DNA from: Nocardiopsis mwathae
Lineage (GTDB): Bacteria; Actinomycetota; Actinomycetes; Streptosporangiales; Streptosporangiaceae
DNA: 64,000 nucleotides
NCBI RefSeq assembly: GCF_014201195.1
Contig: NZ_JACHDS010000001.1
Span: forward strand, 2,418,001-2,482,000
Direction: 5' to 3'
This document shows positions 3,526 through 57,945 of the stretch, one piece after another (positions within the stretch are counted from its first letter, which is position 1; every line of letters begins with the position of its first letter). The notes beneath the pieces were generated by a model. That model saw only the letters and a program-made list of their open reading frames with translations. It was not told where the DNA came from and ran no database searches. A program made the translations under genes and the position numbers.

Positions 3526-4448
3526 CCACCGCAGCTCCCACCGGACCCGCGGCGTCGGCGAGCCGTGCCGGGGGCGGGCGGGCCGGGACCACCGGGGTTC
3601 CGCGCCGTGTCGGCCGCCCGCGCGCCCGACGGCGCAAGAGCGGCGCCCGCGGCATCGCATTGACCGCGCTGACCTGGGGCATCGCCCTGCTGTTCGTCTC
3701 ACCCGCGCTGTGGATGGTGCTGACCGCCTTCAAGCAGGAGGGCGATGCCGCCACCGACCCGCCCACGGTGCTGTTCGAGCCGACCCTGGAGCGGTTCGGC
3801 GGTGTGGTCGACTCCGGCATCCTGCCCTACCTCGCCAACTCGATGGTCGCCACGCTGGTCTCGACGTCGCTGGTGCTGCTGCTGGGGGTACCGGCCGCCT
3901 ACGCGCTGTCGATCCGCCCGATCAAACGCACCCAGGACGCGCTGTTCTTCTTCATCTCGACGAAGATGCTGCCGGTGGTGGCGGTGGTGGTCCCGCTGTA
4001 CGTCGCCGCGGCGCAGGTGCGGATGCTCGACAACGTCTGGACGCTGGTGGTGCTCTACACCGCGATGAACCTGCCGATCGCGGTGTGGATGCTGCGCTCG
4101 TTCTTCCTGGAGGTACCCAAGGGCATCGTCGAGGCGGCGCAGATGGAGGGAGCGGGGCTGCCCCGGGTGCTGTGGTCGGTGATGCTGCCGGTGATGGCGC
4201 CCGGCATCGCCGCGACCGCGCTGATCTGCATGATCTTCTCGTGGAACGAGTTCTTCTTCGCGGTGAACCTGACCGCGGTGCAGGCGGCCACGGCGCCGGT
4301 GTTCATGGTCGGCTTCATCACCAGTGAGGGGTTGTTCCTGGCCCAGCTGTCGGCCGCGGCCACCCTGGTGTCGCTGCCGATCGTGGTGGTCGGCTGGATC
4401 GCCCAGCGCCAGCTGGTCCGGGGTCTGTCGATGGGCGCGGTGAAGTAG
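3522..4448 (+). CDS. Sugar ABC transporter permease, MalG/UgpE type
   Basis: A 308-residue partner permease. The frame is open far upstream, but GTG at 3522 overlaps the previous stop (GTGA, 3522-3525) and has AGGAGG at 3509-3514, so I take it as the start. It has an unusually basic, Arg/Gly-rich cytoplasmic N-terminus of about 45 residues before the first membrane segment. The EAA loop reads EAAQMEGAGLPRVLWSVMLP, and the C-terminus has the family ending GLSMGAVK. Together with the preceding permease it would form the channel. The ATPase must come from elsewhere; the MsiK-like gene at 62061 is a candidate. Confidence 0.9.
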   Translation: MTTAAPTGPAASASRAGGGRAGTTGVPRRVGRPRARRRKSGARGIALTALTWGIALLFVSPALWMVLTAFKQEGDAATDPPTVLFEPTLERFGGVVDSGILPYLANSMVATLVSTSLVLLLGVPAAYALSIRPIKRTQDALFFFISTKMLPVVAVVVPLYVAAAQVRMLDNVWTLVVLYTAMNLPIAVWMLRSFFLEVPKGIVEAAQMEGAGLPRVLWSVMLPVMAPGIAATALICMIFSWNEFFFAVNLTAVQAATAPVFMVGFITSEGLFLAQLSAAATLVSLPIVVVGWIAQRQLVRGLSMGAVK

Positions 4449-4455
4449 CCGACCC

Positions 4456-4483
4456 GCGGCCGCGCCCCTGTGGGCGCGGCCGC
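4456..4483. terminator. Bidirectional hairpin terminator
   Basis: GCGGCCGCGCCC (4456-4467) and GGGCGCGGCCGC (4472-4483) form a perfect 12-bp stem with a CTGT loop. It lies 8 bases after the permease stop and 6 bases before the stop of the convergent oxidoreductase gene, so it can end both transcripts. There is no T tract, as is common in actinomycetes. Confidence 0.75.
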
Positions 4484-4488
4484 CCGGT

Positions 4489-5838
4489 TCAGCCCCGCAC
4501 GGCCCCGGTCCCGGTCCGCCCGGCCGGGGCCGGGCCGCAGCAGCCGGCCTCCTCGGTGGGGTCGGGCTCCTCGGTGAGTCCCGAGCCGCTGCACACGCCG
4601 GTTTCGGGGAGGGTCAGCTCGACGCGCGCGGCCGCCTCGTGGTCGCCGGCGATCCGCGCGGCGATGCTGCGCACCTGCTCGAACCCGGTCAGGGCGAGGA
4701 AGGTGGGGGCACGGCCGTAGGACTTCATGCCCGCCAGGTAGAAGCCGGGCTCGGGGTGGGCGAGCTCCTCGGCCCCGTGTGGGTAGACCGTGCCGCAGGA
4801 GTGCATGTTGGGGTCGATGAGGGGGGCCAGCCCGACCGGTGCCTGCAGGGCGGGGTCGAGGCCGAGCCGGACCTCGGAGAGCCAGGACAGGTCGGGGCGG
4901 AAGCCGGTCAGGGCCACGACCTCGTCGACGGGGCCGAGCTCCCGCCCGCTGTCGTCGGCCAGCACCACGCGGCCGCCCTCGCACCGCACCGCGGCGGTCC
5001 GGAAACCGGTGGCCAGCTCGATGCGCCCGGCGTCGACCGCCGCCTTGGCGCGAATGCCCAGCGCGCCGCGGGCCGCCAGCCGGTCGGCCTCCCCACCGCC
5101 GAACGCGTCGCCGACCTCACCCCTGCGCAGCACCCAGAGGACCCGCGTGCCCGGCTCGGCCTCGGCCAGCTCCGACAGCGCCACGAGTGTCGTCAGCGCG
5201 GAGTGGCCGCGCCCGACGACGGCGGTGCGGCGGCCCCCGTAGCGCCGCCGGGCCTCGGCGTCGGCGAGGTCGGGGATGCGGTGGGAGATGCCGTCGGAGA
5301 CGGAGGCGTCGAGCTCCCCGAGAGCGGGCAGCCCGTCGGCGCCGAGCGGGTTGGGGGTGGTCCAGGTTCCGGAGGCGTCGATGACGGCGCGGGCGAGGAT
5401 CCGCTCCTCGGCCCCGTCGGCCCCGCGGATGTGAACGGTGAACGGCTGCTCCGAGCGCCCGGCGTCGACGACCCGGTCGCGGCCGCGCCGCGCCACGCCG
5501 ATGGCCTCGGTGCCGAACCGGAGGCGGACGCGGCCCCGGTTTCCCAGGGCGTCGGCCAGGGGGCGCAGGTAGGTCCGCACCCACTCGGCGCCGGTGGGGT
5601 AGGCCGCGTCGGCCGGGCGCTGCCGACCCTCTGCGGCGAGGATCTTCTCGGCGGCGGGGGCGATGAGGTCGCGCCAGGAGGAGAAGAGGCGGACGTGGCC
5701 CCATTCGCCGACCGCCGCCCCGGCGGTCGCGCCCTTTTCCAGGACCAGGACGGGCAGGCCGCGCTGCTCCAGTTCGGCCGCTGCGGCCAGCCCCACCGGG
5801 CCCGCGCCGATCACCGCGACCGGCAATCCGTCGACCAT
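4489..5838 (-). CDS. FAD/NAD(P)-dependent oxidoreductase of an arsenic-type module
   Basis: This 449-residue flavoprotein has an N-terminal FAD fingerprint (GAGPVGLAAAAELEQRG, ending in LVLEKG) and a second dinucleotide fold (VVGRGHSALTTL) near the middle. It resembles the flavin monooxygenase-like proteins that accompany ArsR genes in actinomycetes (ArsO-type in name), whose reaction is poorly defined. The C-terminal tail carries extra cysteines (GVCSGSG and GCCGPAP), which could bind trivalent arsenic; that is speculation. ATG at 5838 is preceded by GGAAAGG with a proper spacing; an ATG at 5853 has no ribosome site. It diverges from the ArsR-GNAT gene across a 93-base control region and is convergent with the polyol operon. 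Confidence 0.75.
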   Translation of the reverse strand: MVDGLPVAVIGAGPVGLAAAAELEQRGLPVLVLEKGATAGAAVGEWGHVRLFSSWRDLIAPAAEKILAAEGRQRPADAAYPTGAEWVRTYLRPLADALGNRGRVRLRFGTEAIGVARRGRDRVVDAGRSEQPFTVHIRGADGAEERILARAVIDASGTWTTPNPLGADGLPALGELDASVSDGISHRIPDLADAEARRRYGGRRTAVVGRGHSALTTLVALSELAEAEPGTRVLWVLRRGEVGDAFGGGEADRLAARGALGIRAKAAVDAGRIELATGFRTAAVRCEGGRVVLADDSGRELGPVDEVVALTGFRPDLSWLSEVRLGLDPALQAPVGLAPLIDPNMHSCGTVYPHGAEELAHPEPGFYLAGMKSYGRAPTFLALTGFEQVRSIAARIAGDHEAAARVELTLPETGVCSGSGLTEEPDPTEEAGCCGPAPAGRTGTGAVRG

Positions 5839-5851
5839 GGCACACCTTTCC

Positions 5852-5922
5852 ATCGATGAATGTCGATTGAGTTGGACTTTATCGACATCCATCGATTGAT
5901 GCAACCATCGATCGTGGTCGAT
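5852..5922. promoter_or_regulatory. Three tandem ATCGA-N6-TCGAT operators
   Basis: The same 16-bp inverted repeat, ATCGA, six bases, TCGAT, occurs exactly three times: 5852-5867, 5881-5896 and 5907-5922. Centres are 29 and 26 bp apart. They fill the region between the divergent starts at 5838 and 5932. ArsR/SmtB regulators bind short A/T-edged inverted repeats of this size, so these are probably operators for the adjacent ArsR-GNAT protein controlling both genes. The repeat and its positions are seen directly; the binding is inferred. Confidence 0.75.
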
Positions 5923-5931
5923 AATGAGGCC

Positions 5932-6798
5932 ATGACCGTGACGACGCCCGCGCCCGACGCCCCCGCCCTCGACCCCGCCGACGCCGCGACCTATGCCTCC
6001 TGGTTCGCCTGCCTGGCCGAACCCACGCGCGTCCGGCTCCTGCACGCCATCGCCTCGCGCCCCGGAACGAGCAGCGTCGGGGAGCTGGCCGACAGCCTGG
6101 GCATCGGCCAGCCGACCGTCTCCCACCACCTGCGCAAGCTCGCCGACGTCGGCTTCGTCACCCTGGCCAAGGAGGGCACCTCGACCCGGGTCGCGGTCAA
6201 CCCCGCCTGCTGCACCGGGCTCCCGCACGCGGCCGACGCCGTCATGGGCATGGTGGCCGCACGCCCCTGCTGCCCCGGCGACCTGCCGGACGACGTGACG
6301 GTGCGCGCGATGGAGCCCGGCGACATGGACGCGGTGCGCCGCATCTTCGCGGAGGGCATCGCGACCGGCGAGGCCACCTTCGAGACCGAGGTCCCCGACG
6401 CCGCGACACTCGACGCGACATGGCTGGCCGACCACCGGTGGGTGGCCGAGATCGACGGGGCGGTGGTCGGGTGGGCCGCGGCCGGCCGGGTCTCGAACCG
6501 GGAGGTCTACTCAGGCGTCGCCGAGACCTCGCTCTACGTGGACGAGGCGGAGCGCGGACGCGGTGTCGGCAAGGCGCTGATCCACCGGCAGGTCACCGAG
6601 GCCGACCGGCAGGGCCTGTGGACCCTGCAGTGCTCGGTCTTCCCGGAGAACAAGGCCGGCCTCGCCCTGCACCACTCGGCCGGGTTCCGAACGCTGGGAG
6701 TGCGCGAACGCATCGCCCGGCACCGCGGCCGGTGGCGCGACACGGTCCTGCTGGAACGCCGACGCCCCGACGGTGAGGTGTGCGGCGGCCGGGACTGA
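5932..6798 (+). CDS. ArsR-family regulator fused to an ArsN1/phosphinothricin-type N-acetyltransferase
   Basis: A 288-residue two-domain protein. Residues about 20-95 form an ArsR winged helix (LAEPTRVRLLHAI, then GQPTVSHHLRKLADVGFV). Residues about 123-280 are a GNAT domain of the phosphinothricin/arsinothricin acetyltransferase type, with VYSGVAETSLYV and the acetyl-CoA loop ERGRGVGKALI. Between them lie two cysteine pairs, Cys93-94 and Cys113-114, suited to binding arsenite; Cys27 is also present. ArsN1 is known to acetylate organoarsenical antibiotics such as arsinothricin. I use ATG at 5932; earlier in-frame starts at 5860 and 5899 would run through the operators. No efflux pump or arsenate reductase gene is nearby. 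Confidence 0.85.
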   Translation: MTVTTPAPDAPALDPADAATYASWFACLAEPTRVRLLHAIASRPGTSSVGELADSLGIGQPTVSHHLRKLADVGFVTLAKEGTSTRVAVNPACCTGLPHAADAVMGMVAARPCCPGDLPDDVTVRAMEPGDMDAVRRIFAEGIATGEATFETEVPDAATLDATWLADHRWVAEIDGAVVGWAAAGRVSNREVYSGVAETSLYVDEAERGRGVGKALIHRQVTEADRQGLWTLQCSVFPENKAGLALHHSAGFRTLGVRERIARHRGRWRDTVLLERRRPDGEVCGGRD

Positions 6799-6849
6799 GC
6801 CGACCGCCCACCGCGCGGGCGGCCGTGCCGGTCTCCGCGGTCGGAGCGG

Positions 6850-7869
6850 TCAGAGTTCCGCGGCGATGCGGGCCACGATCTCGGCGGCGGGGGCCTCGGC
6901 GGCCGAGCGGAAGCCGATGCCCGCCCAGAGGTGGAGGGTGTCGGCGTCCCCGGCCTTGGCGGCGGCGGCGCGCATCGGTCCGGTCAGGTAGTGGACCTGC
7001 GGATAGGCGCCGGGAGCCGCCTCGCCGTGGGTGCGCAGGAAGCGGTTGACGATGCCTCGGGCGCGGCGGCCGCTGAAGGCGCGGGTGATGGCGGTCTCGG
7101 AGAAGCGGGCGTCGGCCAGGGCCTGCTTGTGGGTCGCGCTGGCGCCGCACTCGTGGCAGCGGAGGAACGCCGTACCGAGCTGGGCGGCGACGGCGCCACG
7201 GGACAGGACGGCGCGGACTCCCTCGGGGCCGGTGATGCCGCCCGCCGCGACGAGGGGGACGTCGACGGCCGCGCGCACCTCGGTGAGGAGGTCGAGCAGC
7301 GGCACGGTCCGCTCCTGGTCGTCGACGAACGAGCCCTGGTGCCCGCCCGCCTCGGCGCCCTGCACGCACAGGGCGTCCGCCCCGGCCTCGACGGCGATGC
7401 GGGCCTCGGCCGGGGTGGTGACGGTGACGACGACGGCGCTGCCGGCCGCCCGCAGCAGGGCGATGTCACGCGCCTCGGGGCAGCCGAAGGTGAAACTCAC
7501 CACGGGGACGGGCGAGGCGAGGAGGGCGTCCAGTTTCGCCGAGTAGTCGTCATCCCGCCACTCGGCCGGTCCGGGCGCGGCGCCCAGTCGCTCGGCCTCG
7601 GGGGCGATCCGCTCCCGGTAGGCGGCGACCTGCGTCTCGGGGACGGCGCTGCCGCGGTCGGGCATGAAGATGTTGACCCCGAAGTCGCGCGAGGTCAGCG
7701 TGCGCGTCTTCGCGATCTGCTCGGCCATCGACTCGGCGGTCCGGTACCCGGCGGCGAGGAAGCCGATCCCGCCCGCCCCGTTGACCGCCGCGACCAGCTC
7801 CGGCGTGCTGGCGCCGCCCGCCATGGGAGCCGCCACGACCGGAACGCCGATCCCATCGAAAATGCCCAC
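6850..7869 (-). CDS. Nitronate monooxygenase (2-nitropropane dioxygenase family)
   Basis: A 339-residue FMN-dependent TIM-barrel enzyme that oxidatively denitrifies alkyl nitronates; some relatives act in polyketide or fatty-acid metabolism as enoyl reductases. Visible family elements are APMAGG near the N-terminus, GAGGIGFL, VVSFTFGCP, the FMN/phosphate region VQGAEAGGHQG and AAGGITGPEGV. GTG at 7869 has GGGGGAG six bases upstream and puts APMAGG at the usual distance; ATG at 7902 would add 11 residues with no ribosome site. It is convergent with the ArsR-GNAT gene and not obviously linked to it. Confidence 0.85.
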   Translation of the reverse strand: MGIFDGIGVPVVAAPMAGGASTPELVAAVNGAGGIGFLAAGYRTAESMAEQIAKTRTLTSRDFGVNIFMPDRGSAVPETQVAAYRERIAPEAERLGAAPGPAEWRDDDYSAKLDALLASPVPVVSFTFGCPEARDIALLRAAGSAVVVTVTTPAEARIAVEAGADALCVQGAEAGGHQGSFVDDQERTVPLLDLLTEVRAAVDVPLVAAGGITGPEGVRAVLSRGAVAAQLGTAFLRCHECGASATHKQALADARFSETAITRAFSGRRARGIVNRFLRTHGEAAPGAYPQVHYLTGPMRAAAAKAGDADTLHLWAGIGFRSAAEAPAAEIVARIAAEL

Positions 7870-54600: not shown

Positions 54601-54899
54601 GGCAGGCGCTGGAGGCCATCCCCGGTGCCCGGATATCCGCCCCGGTGGCCGACGGGCTGGCCGCCGCCGCGCTGAAGGACGGCGACGCCGAGACCGCGGC
54701 GGTGCTCCTGGGAACGGCGGCCGCCCTGCGCGGTGCTCCCGGCTCGGTCCCCCCGGACAGCCGGGCCGTGGCCGAACGGTGCCGTACCGCCCTGGGCGAC
54801 ACCGCCTTCGACAAGGCCCGCTCCCGCGGCGCCTCGATATCCCTCGGCGAGGCCCTGACCCTCGTCGGAGCGGCCCCCTCCGGCTCCGCCCATCGCTGA
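51687..54899 (+). CDS. AfsR/SARP-like BTAD transcriptional regulator with NB-ARC and TPR domains
   Basis: A 1070-residue regulator. Residues 1-95 are an OmpR-like winged helix (GSRLRGLLILLLLESGQVV), and about 97-245 a bacterial transcriptional activation domain (DAHRFERLAADGRASLRTG, DPSPELAELHLAVLRGD). An NB-ARC ATPase follows with SFVGREAELERI, P-loop GPGGVGKTR, LLLILDNCEHLI and LATSREPLGL. The rest (about 620-1060) is TPR-like helical repeats. Such proteins activate antibiotic or export genes after a signal acts on the sensor part. It lies directly before a DHA2 exporter, with repeats of about two-turn helical spacing between. Confidence 0.92.
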   Translation: MRFGILGPLEAHSGDGQPVTINGSRLRGLLILLLLESGQVVGTERLIDGLYGHTPPEGAANALQSLVSRLRRGLAGPGGEGPAIEFHPAGYRLAVDPGAVDAHRFERLAADGRASLRTGDHAHAAAVLRDALALWRGPALADAGPTPFVRAQAERLEELRLAAREDLNEAELERGEHRALLTELRDLVAAHPLRERPRAQLIRALYGAGRQAEALAEFEDTRRMLAEELGTDPSPELAELHLAVLRGDPALSAPAAPDPEPPRQRLPAQLTSFVGREAELERIDALLGSQRLVTLTGPGGVGKTRLAVEAAARYPGEVYLAELAPLGDGADLPLAVLSALGARDTALPTLMPGRPGQAPDALGRLTGVVAQRRLLLILDNCEHLIGDAARLADRMLRACPGVRILATSREPLGLTAERLCPVPQLASPPADSAPSAALDYPAVRLFADRAAAVRPDFTVEDGTAEAVLRICSALDGLPLALELAAARLRSLPATEVAARIGDRFGLLSRGDRAAQPRHQTLRAVVAWSWDLLGTDERRLARRLTVFSGGATLEAAAGVCGIPESEVVDLLTGLAEKSLVETSGGRYRMLETIRAFCAERLEEAGERDRFRSAHARYFLDLAETAEPHLHRAEQVDWLPRLAAEQENLHGALRWAVESGDLDAGLRFVGALSAYWWLRGLRGQAGPLSGEVLGAIPAPPGSAPSPTDGRAEEYVLCVINAAAGGLDARELEPHLAVAEAVVRDTPRPLRLPLIDMLWSVASGAPERQFDIAPLMRDNLEAPDPWTRAIAHVQLGYAAFAGDVAEEAERAFTAGLEGFRGLGDRWGMVLALTGLAGLAELRGDSERCIAHADEALAMTEALGATEDTAEILTLRGSGRAAMGDLDGAEADHQHAAEIARRAGIPEALAGAYRRLAEVALRRGDPAEARRLCSAALAECRAGSSAVIETRALIHVTLGGIAAAEGDTARARSVYRQALEAIPGARISAPVADGLAAAALKDGDAETAAVLLGTAAALRGAPGSVPPDSRAVAERCRTALGDTAFDKARSRGASISLGEALTLVGAAPSGSAHR

Positions 54900-54900
54900 C

Positions 54901-54976
54901 CCCTGTCGTCGTCCGCGGTGAAGCGCACCGACCACATGCGGTCTTCCGGCGCGCTTCACCGCGGACGACGACAGGG
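54901..54976. repeat. 26-bp perfect inverted repeat
   Basis: The arms at 54901-54926 and 54951-54976 are exact reverse complements over 26 bases (outer end CCCTGTCGTCGTCC, inner end GGTGAAGCGC). The loop of 24 bases contains ACCG and CGGT that could pair further. It begins 2 bases after the regulator stop. It is probably a terminator, but no T tract follows and it is longer than the other hairpins here. Confidence 0.85.
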
Positions 54977-54996
54977 CGGGTCGGCCGTGTGCGCGG

Positions 54997-55051
54997 GCGG
55001 TCAGCGGGCCCGACGGCGCGGTCAGCGGGAGGTGCGCGGGCGGTCAGCGGG
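54997..55051. promoter_or_regulatory. Three 12-bp direct repeats upstream of the exporter gene
   Basis: GCGGTCAGCGGG occurs at 54997-55008, 55018-55029 and 55040-55051, with starts 21 and 22 bp apart. The first and third copies extend to 19 identical bases (54990-55008 and 55033-55051). SARP/AfsR regulators bind direct repeats in 11- or 22-bp register beside the -35 region. These repeats end 18 bases before the exporter ATG, so they are good candidates for sites of the preceding regulator. Confidence 0.55.
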
Positions 55052-55069
55052 GGTCGCCACGGTGGGAGC

Positions 55070-56761
55070 ATGGACACAACCGCGACAACCACGACCTCCG
55101 GTTCCGGCCAGCGGGCCGGACGCAAGGAATGGATCGGGCTCATCCTGCTGGTGCTGCCCGGCATGCTCGTCTCCATGGACATGTCCGTGCTCTACATGGC
55201 CCTGCCATGGCTCGGCGCCGACCTGCGGCCGAGCAGCACGGAGATGCTGTGGATCATCGACATCTACGGCTTCCTGCTGGCCGGGCTGCTGATCACCATG
55301 GGCACGCTGGGCGACCGCATCGGCCGGCGCCGGGTACTGATGGCCGGCGCCGTGCTGTTCGCCATCGGGTCGCTCGCCGCGGCCTACTCGACCAGCCCCG
55401 AGATGCTCATCGCCGCCCGCGCGCTGCTCGGTATCGGTGGTGCGACGCTGGCGCCGTCCACGCTCTCGCTGATCCGCAACATGTTCCACGACCCCCGGCA
55501 GCGCCGCACCGCGATCGGCGTGTGGACCGCCGGGTTCAGCGGCGGCGCCATGCTGGGGCCGATCGTCGGCGGCCTGCTCATGGAGGTCTTCTGGTGGGGC
55601 TCGGTCTTCCTCATCAACCTCCCGGCGATGGCCCTGGTCCTCCTCCTGGCCCCCTTCATGGTCCCCGAGTACCGCGACCCCAAGGCCGGGAAGTTCGACC
55701 TTCTCAGTGCGGTGCTGTCGCTGGCCGCCGTACTCCCGGTGATCTTCGGCATGAAGATGATCGCCACGCACGGATTCGCGTGGACCTACGTGCTCTCCCT
55801 CGTCGTCGGCATCGCCCTGGGCGCGGCGTTCCTCCGCCGCCAGCGCACGGTCGACCACCCCATGATCGATCTGGACCTGTTCCGCTCCCGCGCGTTCAGC
55901 GCCTCCCTCGGCGCGGTCACGCTCGCCATGTTCGCGATGTTCGGCGTCATGTTCTTCATGTCGCAGTACCTGCAGCTCGTGCTCGGCCTGCGGCCGCTGA
56001 TGGCCGCGCTGTGGACCATGCCCTCGCTGCTGGGCATGATGGTCGGCGTCACCGTCGCCACCATCGTGGTGCGCTTCGTCCGGCCCGGCCACGTCGTCGG
56101 CTCCGGCCTCGCGCTGGCCGCGGTGGGTGTGCTGGTCATCACCGGCATCAGTGCGGAGTCCGGCCTGGTGTACATCGTCATCGGCGGCATCCTGATGTCC
56201 GCCGGCCTGGGCGCGGTGACCGCTCTGATCACCGACCTGATCGTGAGCTCGGCACCACCGGAGCGGGCGGGTGCGGCCTCGGCGCTCTCCGAGACCGCCA
56301 ACGAGTTCGGCGGCGCGGTCGGCATCGCCGTCCTGGGAAGCATCGGCACGGCCGTCTACCGCTCGCACGTCAGCGCCGACGCGCCGACCGGGCTGCCGGA
56401 CGCGGCCCTGGACGCCGCCCGTGACACCTTGGCCGGTGCGGCGGGTGTGGCCGCCGAGCTGCCCTCGGCCGCGGCCCAGGAGCTGCTGGGGGTCGCCCGC
56501 GAGGCCTTCACCCACGGGATCCACGCGAGTTCCTACGCCGGTGCCGGGGTATTGATGGTGACGGCGGTGCTCGCGGCCGTCCTGCTGCGGCACACCCGCC
56601 CGCACGGCGACGGCGGCTCGGCGGCGGATGCGGCCGAGGAGGCGCCCGACCCGCAGGGCGGCGACGCCCACGGGGCCGGGACCGGTCCGGCCGACGTCCG
56701 CACCGGGGGCACCGGGGGGAGCTCGGGCCCGGCCGCCGCGGCACCGCGATCCGGGGCCTGA
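55070..56761 (+). CDS. DHA2-family MFS drug exporter
   Basis: A 563-residue, 14-helix exporter of the EmrB/QacA-SmvA type. Motif A is GTLGDRIGRRRVL in the second loop, motif C is in WTAGFSGGAMLGPIVGG, and helix 1 has LVSMDMSVLYMALPWLG with the acid residue of this family. A hydrophilic C-terminal tail of about 55 residues is Gly/Ala-rich. It is likely to export a cationic or amphiphilic drug. GGGAG lies only 1-2 bases before the ATG at 55070, too close for a normal ribosome site, so the mRNA may be leaderless. Confidence 0.9.
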   Translation: MDTTATTTTSGSGQRAGRKEWIGLILLVLPGMLVSMDMSVLYMALPWLGADLRPSSTEMLWIIDIYGFLLAGLLITMGTLGDRIGRRRVLMAGAVLFAIGSLAAAYSTSPEMLIAARALLGIGGATLAPSTLSLIRNMFHDPRQRRTAIGVWTAGFSGGAMLGPIVGGLLMEVFWWGSVFLINLPAMALVLLLAPFMVPEYRDPKAGKFDLLSAVLSLAAVLPVIFGMKMIATHGFAWTYVLSLVVGIALGAAFLRRQRTVDHPMIDLDLFRSRAFSASLGAVTLAMFAMFGVMFFMSQYLQLVLGLRPLMAALWTMPSLLGMMVGVTVATIVVRFVRPGHVVGSGLALAAVGVLVITGISAESGLVYIVIGGILMSAGLGAVTALITDLIVSSAPPERAGAASALSETANEFGGAVGIAVLGSIGTAVYRSHVSADAPTGLPDAALDAARDTLAGAAGVAAELPSAAAQELLGVAREAFTHGIHASSYAGAGVLMVTAVLAAVLLRHTRPHGDGGSAADAAEEAPDPQGGDAHGAGTGPADVRTGGTGGSSGPAAAAPRSGA

Positions 56762-56797: not shown

Positions 56798-57208
56798 ATG
56801 GTGCTCTTCGGCAGGGAACACGTCGAGCGCTACCAGGCGAGCGACGGCGAGGAAGGACACGACTGGTTGAAGGGCACCACCGTCCTTCTCCTGACCACGA
56901 CCGGGCGGAGAACGGGCAAGAGCCGCACGACCCCGCTCATCTACCGCACCGACGGACCGGACTTCGTGGTCGTCGCCTCCAACGGCGGTGCCCCGGACTC
57001 CCCCTCCTGGTACAAGAACCTCACGACCCATCCGGAGGTCGGGGTCCAGGTGAAGGGGGACCGGTTCACCGCACGCGCGCGCACCGCCTCGGAGGCGGAG
57101 AAGGAACGCCTGTGGCCGCGCATGGCCGCGGTGTGGCCCGACTACGACGAGTACCAGGCCAAGACCGACCGTCCGATCCCGGTCGTCATCCTGCAGCGCA
57201 CGGCGTGA
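56798..57208 (+). CDS. Ddn-like deazaflavin (F420)-dependent nitroreductase family protein
   Basis: A 136-residue FDOR-A split-barrel protein. The F420-binding region GRRTGKSRTTPLIY is typical, followed by VVVASNGGAPDSPSWYKNLTTHP and AEKERLWPRMAAVWPDYDEYQ. These enzymes reduce quinones or nitro compounds with reduced F420, a cofactor of actinobacteria. It lies 36 bases after the exporter gene and might be co-transcribed. A strong terminator follows. Confidence 0.92.
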   Translation: MVLFGREHVERYQASDGEEGHDWLKGTTVLLLTTTGRRTGKSRTTPLIYRTDGPDFVVVASNGGAPDSPSWYKNLTTHPEVGVQVKGDRFTARARTASEAEKERLWPRMAAVWPDYDEYQAKTDRPIPVVILQRTA

Positions 57209-57270: not shown

Positions 57271-57493
57271 TGTGCCGGACGGGCAGAACCGGGGAGAACA
57301 GAGCGTGAACACATCCCCGGACGGCACACCACCACCCCCCGGCAAAGATTCGCCAAAGCATCGGCCGACCAGGGGCGATGTGCCGTAACGCGGAGGACGC
57401 GCGGGGCGGGAGAATAGCCCCGTCGTGACACTGAGCGATAGGTTGGTCACGGAAGACCGAACATTATCGCACGGTTGGATCACCGCTGTCAGG

Positions 57494-57519
57494 GGAATCT
57501 TGACACGGACCAACGCGTT
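57494..57519 (+). promoter_or_regulatory. Sigma-R type promoter of rbpA
   Basis: GGAAT (57494-57498), exactly 18 bases, GTT (57517-57519) is the consensus of the thiol-stress sigma factor SigR/SigH. Transcription would begin near 57527, giving a leader of about 35 bases. rbpA is a known SigR-regulated gene in Streptomyces, which supports the call. Confidence 0.8.
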
Positions 57520-57561
57520 ACACCCACGGAGACCGCTAGAGCGCCTGGAGGCACCCACACG

Positions 57562-57945
57562 ATGGCCGAGCGAGCACTTCGCGGCACACGACTCGGGGCG
57601 ACCAGCTACGAGAACGACCGCAACACCGACCTGGCACCTCGCCAAGAGGTCACCTACGACTGCCCCCGGGGCCATCGCTTCTCCGTCACCTTCGCCACCG
57701 AGGCCGAGACCCCGGCGAACTGGGAGTGCCGCTTCTGCGGCGACAACGCCCTGATGGTGAACGGGGAGGAGCCGCAGGAGAAGAAGGCGAAGCCGGCACG
57801 TACGCACTGGGACATGCTGCTGGAACGCCGGAGCATGGAGGACCTGGAGGAGGTCCTCGCCGAGCGCCTCGCCCTGCTGCGCGCCCGCCGCAAGGAGGAG
57901 CAGGAGCACCTGGAGGCGATGGCCGAGCAGCGCCAGACCGCCTGA
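57562..57945 (+). CDS. rbpA: RNA polymerase-binding protein RbpA
   Basis: A 127-residue RbpA. It has the N-terminal RGTRLGATSYENDRN, the zinc-type core CPRGHRFSVTFA with ANWECRFCG, the basic linker KKAKPARTHWDMLLERRS and the sigma-interacting helix MEDLEEVLAERLALLRARR. RbpA binds the housekeeping sigma factor and RNA polymerase beta, stabilises the open complex, and is confined to actinobacteria. Start and length are standard. Confidence 0.97.
   Translation: MAERALRGTRLGATSYENDRNTDLAPRQEVTYDCPRGHRFSVTFATEAETPANWECRFCGDNALMVNGEEPQEKKAKPARTHWDMLLERRSMEDLEEVLAERLALLRARRKEEQEHLEAMAEQRQTA

Follow-up and report, generated by a model that had tools for sequence, protein, structure and literature searches.

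The locus analysed here raises the question of whether the direct repeats lying between the gene of a large SARP-type regulator and that of a DHA2-type exporter are the site through which the regulator acts on its neighbour. The window, by which we mean the whole 64-kb stretch of DNA under analysis, had been given a preliminary description, and the flanking genes were recovered as named there: on one side lies a BTAD regulator that also has AAA and TPR parts, on the other an MFS_1 exporter (Table 1). In our assessment it is highly probable that the repeats are, as predicted, the activator site of a SARP-dependent exporter promoter and are bound by the adjacent large SARP. This assessment is based on the geometry of the repeats, their conservation, the link to genes for exporters and drug-modifying enzymes, and the homology of the regulator to AfsR including the arginine that contacts a T in the binding site.

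The repeat array and its neighbours

Table 1. Features of the regulator-exporter interval and the genes on either side (window coordinates)
Feature	Position	Strand	Remarks
Large SARP (AfsR-like) regulator, 1070 aa	51687..54899	+	OmpR-type DNA-binding domain and BTAD (about aa 1-250), AAA/NOD, TPR
30-nt inverted repeat	54901..54976		Arms 97% complementary; directly past the regulator stop
Half-site GGTCAGC, distal (repeat 1)	54999..55005	+	21 bp upstream of repeat 2
Half-site GGTCAGC (repeat 2)	55020..55026	+	22-bp pair with repeat 3 kept across genera
Half-site GGTGCGC, middle, weaker	55031..55037	+	11 bp from repeats 2 and 3
Half-site GGTCAGC, proximal (repeat 3)	55042..55048	+	GTCAGCG is 55043-55049 and starts 27 nt before the ATG
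Putative -10-like CACGGT	55058..55063	+	8 bp past the end of GTCAGCG (55049); suggested by conservation
DHA2-type MFS exporter, 563 aa	55070..56761	+	MFS_1 2.5e-50; ATG is the predicted transcription start

The sequence GCGGTCAGCGGG is present in three exact copies at 54997-55008, 55018-55029 and 55040-55051, with the periods of 21 and 22 bp originally claimed, and the last copy ends 18 bases before the exporter ATG, again as claimed. The exporter had also been said to lack a normal ribosome site, which holds in the sense that a GGGAG is found there with its end only 1 nt before the ATG. Nowhere else in the window does an exact 12-mer occur three times within 80 bp, and no such triple arose in 100 dinucleotide shuffles of the window. 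The only other place in the 5.94-Mb genome with GGTCAGCGG pairs at 21-22 bp is a 7-bp tandem array. That array of GGTCAGC (G000:C1:5428741-5428791) is probably a simple repeat, and similar arrays are seen in family genomes.

Three features had been missed in the preliminary description: the middle half-site GGTGCGC, the -10-like CACGGT and the 30-nt inverted repeat past the regulator stop. Together with copies 2 and 3 of the repeat, which are 22 bp apart, the middle half-site forms a series in steps of 11 bp (55020, 55031 and 55042). According to the excerpted text of PMC10936776, a SARP site is made up of direct repeats with a period of 11 or 22 bp, of which the 3' one stands 8 bp from the -10. 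The spacing here and the distance to CACGGT agree with this rule and with the AfsR structure, in keeping with the earlier proposal of a SARP register, and copies 1 and 2 deviate from it at 21 bp. CACGGT is followed by 6 nt before the exporter ATG. A sigma-70 scan of the repeat region called no promoter.

The regulator has the composition of a large SARP, an OmpR-type domain followed by BTAD and a C-terminal NOD/AAA and TPR part, with Pfam matches to Trans_reg_C (6.6e-7), BTAD (2.5e-46), AAA_22 (6.8e-8) and TPR_12 (6.1e-10). Its N-terminus gave sequence matches to AfsR and EmbR, and the AfsR structures 8k60 (E 2.9e-54), 8jke (2e-53) and 8hvr (4.3e-43) were matched; the alignment to AfsR extends over aa 1-620. 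Since the score against the AfsR equivalog model NF053617 was 251.9 bits at a curated cut-off of 1430, the protein is AfsR-like and not AfsR. It retains the equivalents of S91, R92 and R94 of AfsR (VSRLRR), and the R92 equivalent was present in all 20 repeat-linked regulators compared.

The inverted repeat separates the regulator stop from the predicted promoter and falls within the part of the interval for which the congener discussed below has no alignable sequence. It folds (54895-54990) into a hairpin of -76.3 kcal/mol (z -10.2) that is not followed by a T run, and the intrinsic-terminator scan did not call it. Perhaps it insulates or terminates the regulator transcript. The exporter is far above the cut-off for MFS_1, and its assignment to the DHA2 type is to be read with its 186.9 bits against the DHA2 subfamily model TIGR00711 (cut-off 230.2). 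It is QepA/LfrA-like, below the cut-offs of both models, with 497.8 bits against 1075 for the QepA equivalog. Downstream of the exporter follow a gene for an F420H2-dependent quinone reductase-like protein (56798-57208) and then one for the RNA-polymerase-binding protein RbpA (57475-57945).

The closest known counterpart in layout is AfsR at afsS. According to the excerpt of PMC10936776, the afs box of S. coelicolor afsS spans -40 to -19, R92 of AfsR contacts T-38 with T-27 as the downstream match, a SARP dimer with sigma region 4 engages the box over a poor -35, and the NOD and TPR parts of AfsR are inhibitory until relieved by ATP. By this account the two systems share a large SARP with NOD and TPR, direct repeats of 11 bp, a weak -10 (CACTGT there, CACGGT here) located 8 bp from the 3' repeat and a T at the place contacted by R92, in a register that agrees within 1 nt if transcription starts at the ATG. 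They differ in that the afs box consists of two 11-bp repeats, whereas here three are in phase with a distal copy added, and in the GGTnnGC half-site, the exporter target and the apparently leaderless start of the present locus. Because the register of the repeats is within 1 nt of that of AfsR and the R92 equivalent is kept, we infer a SARP-activated promoter of the leaderless type.

Further comparisons concern the spacing and the target. The search described in the excerpt of PMC8780764 was for SARP heptamer sites spaced by 4 or 15 nt in biosynthetic clusters of Streptomyces avermitilis; the GTCAGCG copies here are likewise 15 nt apart, with the middle half-site 4 nt from each, but the target genes are of resistance type. 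CpkF is also a DHA2 exporter and belongs to a cluster with the SARP activators CpkN/CpkO, but it is cluster-specific, and no such direct-repeat leaderless promoter is described in the excerpt of PMC11632069. No report of this promoter form was found among the open-access papers searched on SARPs with leaderless starts, DHA2 or efflux. Leaderless mRNAs (5' leader <9 nt) as such make up 22.2% in S. avermitilis, as given in an excerpted source.

Conservation of the array beside orthologous genes and across the family

The only other genome of the genus compared, the congener G001 (two were searched), has an exporter that is 81% identical, and GTCAGC starts 80, 71, 49 and 27 nt before its ATG, as against 70, 49 and 27 nt in the window. 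The distal repeat is retained there, at 22 bp, and CCACGGTGGGAGCATGGA is identical. DNA similarity ends at window position 54880 and returns at 54998, which is the first repeat, the 118 bp between being swapped in G001 for about 1.45 kb with an opposite-strand zinc alcohol dehydrogenase gene. As similarity returns at 54998 after a replaced stretch, the conserved block begins at the repeats. The regulator of the congener (L037, reverse complement, 4259-7543) shows 79-87% identity along the greater part of the protein, with a frame change in the BTAD region and another near the C-terminus, which may be either true breakage or sequencing error.

A comparison of 40 loci comprised 35 of the 37 best regulator matches elsewhere (aa 1-250 as query; two of G071 omitted), L263 and L264, which were picked for an adjoining exporter match, and three paralogues from the window's own genome. 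The preliminary description had pointed to orthologous pairs as the place to look for the same repeats, whose absence would have spoken against it, and they are indeed there: a co-directional DHA2 gene lies just downstream in 13 of the 35 loci, all in other genera and chosen solely by similarity of the regulator protein, and in all 13 a 22-bp GTCAG(C/T) repeat precedes the exporter, just as the repeats of G001 are found at nearly the same places. In another six of the 35 the repeat stands before a FAD monooxygenase 70-73% identical to L320. No GTCAGC pair at 20-24 bp was found in the fetched stretch of the other 16 loci, one of which is on a contig that stops soon past the regulator gene, or of the three paralogues; the recognition helix of these 16 regulators is closely similar. 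Pairs of GTCAGC at 20-24 bp number 23 across the 40 loci: 19 have a spacing of exactly 22 bp, each of them before a target gene, three at 24 bp lie elsewhere and one at 20 bp is inside one promoter. In the divergent pair of L263 the repeat is present at 22 bp.

At every one of the 13 exporter loci and the six FAD monooxygenase loci the proximal repeat falls outside coding sequence, and at the latter six so does the distal repeat. At nine of the 13 exporter loci, however, the coding end of the regulator takes in the distal repeat, so that coding constraint may account for some of the conservation of this copy. Many sites also have an inverted GCTGAC upstream, which was not retained as a feature, as it reads by eye as regulator coding sequence (A-L-T; e.g. 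L236 and L243).

When relatives were instead found by exporter similarity, GTCAG-N17-GTCAG was missing in 22 of 28, and the exporter family as such is therefore not characterised by the repeat. L114, which is among these 22 and is the same locus as the divergent pair L264, carries in its place four GGTGnGC copies at 11-bp intervals. Repression by a neighbouring regulator is common among exporters, and the relatives that do without the repeat would also be compatible with an operator at which a repressor, e.g. of TetR type, blocks an overlapping promoter. This is nevertheless very improbable for the present array, since direct repeats in 11-bp phase that stand 8 bp before a weak -10 and occupy the place of the -35 have the form of a SARP-type activator site and not of a palindromic operator, and the linked regulator is itself a SARP.

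Among 80 named loci close to the regulator, a DHA2 match was present in the flank of seven, two of them adjacent by coordinates (L138 and L151). Inspected by eye, the divergent L151 has two GTGAGCG 11 bp apart before the exporter, but also a leader and a ribosome site, and no such repeat pattern was seen in L138. A paralogous divergent SARP/DHA2 pair, L010 and its congeneric equivalent L009, carries GTGCG repeats 11 bp (L010) and 22 bp (L009) apart, with CACCGT or CACTCT, as judged by eye, 8 bp further on. In the regulators of these pairs (L075 and L078) Q or H replaces the contacting arginine, a possible shift of specificity.

At the level of the family, GTCAGCG-N15-GTCAGCG-N(12-24)-ATG was found in 163 of 341 genomes and 34 of 68 genera, with 0 hits for the backward control. 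Column statistics were drawn from 119 promoters among the matches listed, mostly those in the earlier part. In 110 of the 119 the proximal GTCAGCG starts 27 (n=63) or 28 (n=47) nt before the ATG, where 19-31 were allowed. Conservation extends to columns that the pattern leaves free: in the aligned promoters the GGT in 11-bp phase is found as G in 83-85%, G in 96-97% and T in 92-96%, and the -10 has A at position 2 in 110 of 110 and T at position 6 in 98-100%. A C directly precedes the ATG in 92-94% of the promoters, and SD-like 5-mers are present in 3 of 110. From this C and the 6-7-nt spacing to the -10 a leaderless start is predicted.

Short repeats do arise in high-GC DNA, and elsewhere in the window the 12-mer is matched five times with one mismatch and once exactly. 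A chance origin, or a functionless GC-rich slippage repeat, is nonetheless refuted by the comparative data and has next to no probability, considering the shuffles, the empty control in 341 genomes and the conserved phase of -10 and ATG. A GTCAGC triple as probe, with neither -10 nor ATG, was rejected, as it hit 61 of 250 genomes, many with visible simple tandem repeats, and 8 of 250 in the backward control.

Class-wide, the pattern with N(18-22) was present in 23 of 394 genomes, and in 9 of 353 outside the family, with a control of 0; a relaxed GGTnnGC triple with -10 and ATG gave 9 of 394, again with a control of 0. Of 98 genomes that have a close regulator homologue, 48 contain the motif, versus 0 of 20 that lack such a homologue, G113 and G116 being left out. 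The Fisher value of 8.8e-6 for this association is not a clean probability, since the genomes are related and relatedness inflates the association.

Target genes and the acting regulator

The genes behind the motif were inspected at 70 in-family matches, of which 30 came directly from the motif search and 40 were picked from its matches, so that they are not a random sample. Genes of six classes start at 63 of the 70 sites: 33 DHA2 exporters, 10 FAD monooxygenases, 10 C45 acyltransferase/hydrolases, seven DUF2306 membrane proteins, two ABC ATPases and one P450. Genes were assigned to a class by their similarity to a single representative of it, and the class names come from Pfam or NCBIfam matches of members. 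The remaining seven sites gave no gene of these classes; one of them, L287, belongs to an exporter for which a shorter ATG had been chosen. The FAD monooxygenases that were scanned (n=3) match the tetracycline-destructase model below its cut-off. Outside the family, two of nine loci carry a gene of the six classes with an upstream regulator, a DrrA-type ABC ATPase (L304) and a FAD monooxygenase (L306); the other seven do not.

A regulator lies directly upstream of 25 of the 33 DHA2 exporters, and upstream of 5 of the 10 FAD monooxygenases. For the other eight exporters with a site, no regulator match was obtained within 1.5 kb upstream. The C45 hydrolases (10 of 70) and DUF2306 proteins (7 of 70), e.g. 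at L331, L333 and L343, carry the same module with no regulator match in the flank. Because 16 regulators of similar helix have no repeat pair and 8 of 33 exporters have no regulator, the acting regulator can be unlinked.

It is in this light that another reading must be weighed, in which the repeats are a real SARP box, the main activator is another large SARP of the genome and adjacency is historical. Further regulators of the window's genome (e.g. L265 and L266) share the helix type, and this, the eight site-bearing exporters lacking a linked regulator and the frame-split regulator of G001 would all fit. We regard it as unlikely. Every one of the 13 regulator loci that are directly followed by an exporter has the site, likeness over aa 1-250 is 49-50% for those paralogues of the window's genome that were compared, against 57-68% for the repeat-linked regulators, and in the paralogous pair L010/L009 a GTGCG half-site goes together with replacement of the contacting R by Q or H. 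The adjacent SARP remains the preferred activator, and the interpretation given in the preliminary description is supported, its binding and ligand-sensing parts standing as predictions.

A putative resistance-gene switch

In the mechanism we propose, the SARP would bind the three GGTnnGC half-sites in 11-bp steps on one face of the DNA, as a dimer or higher oligomer, and the distal copy would add a fourth half-site to this array. Like AfsR at afsS, the bound SARP would then set RNA polymerase on a poor -10, here CACGGT, for which a useful -35 is lacking. Transcription would start at the ATG or within 1 nt of it, giving a leaderless exporter mRNA with no ribosome site. One may speculate that the AAA/NOD and TPR parts restrain the activator until a signal releases it, which would probably be either a toxic compound or a state that depends on ATP.

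About half of the family genomes searched have this layout, and its recurrence in front of genes for exporters and drug-modifying enzymes suggests that it may be a widespread switch for genes of the resistance type. We extend this, tentatively and as a whole at somewhat short of an even chance, to a family-wide code in which STAND-type large SARPs would be one-component sensors of xenobiotics that switch on resistance genes through a rigid leaderless module of about 52 bp. The module would consist of the start codon, the -10 and three GGTnnGC half-sites in 11-bp phase, and its targets would be DHA2/ABC exporters, tetracycline-destructase-like monooxygenases and C45 hydrolases.

SARPs are known mainly as switches of antibiotic production, and the present findings point to a large set of SARPs that would instead drive exporters and drug-modifying enzymes. 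The promoter is so stereotyped that its targets can be read from sequence across the family, and the 52-bp module would be a ready reporter. What large STAND-type SARPs sense thereby becomes directly testable, as the target gene may hint at the class of ligand.
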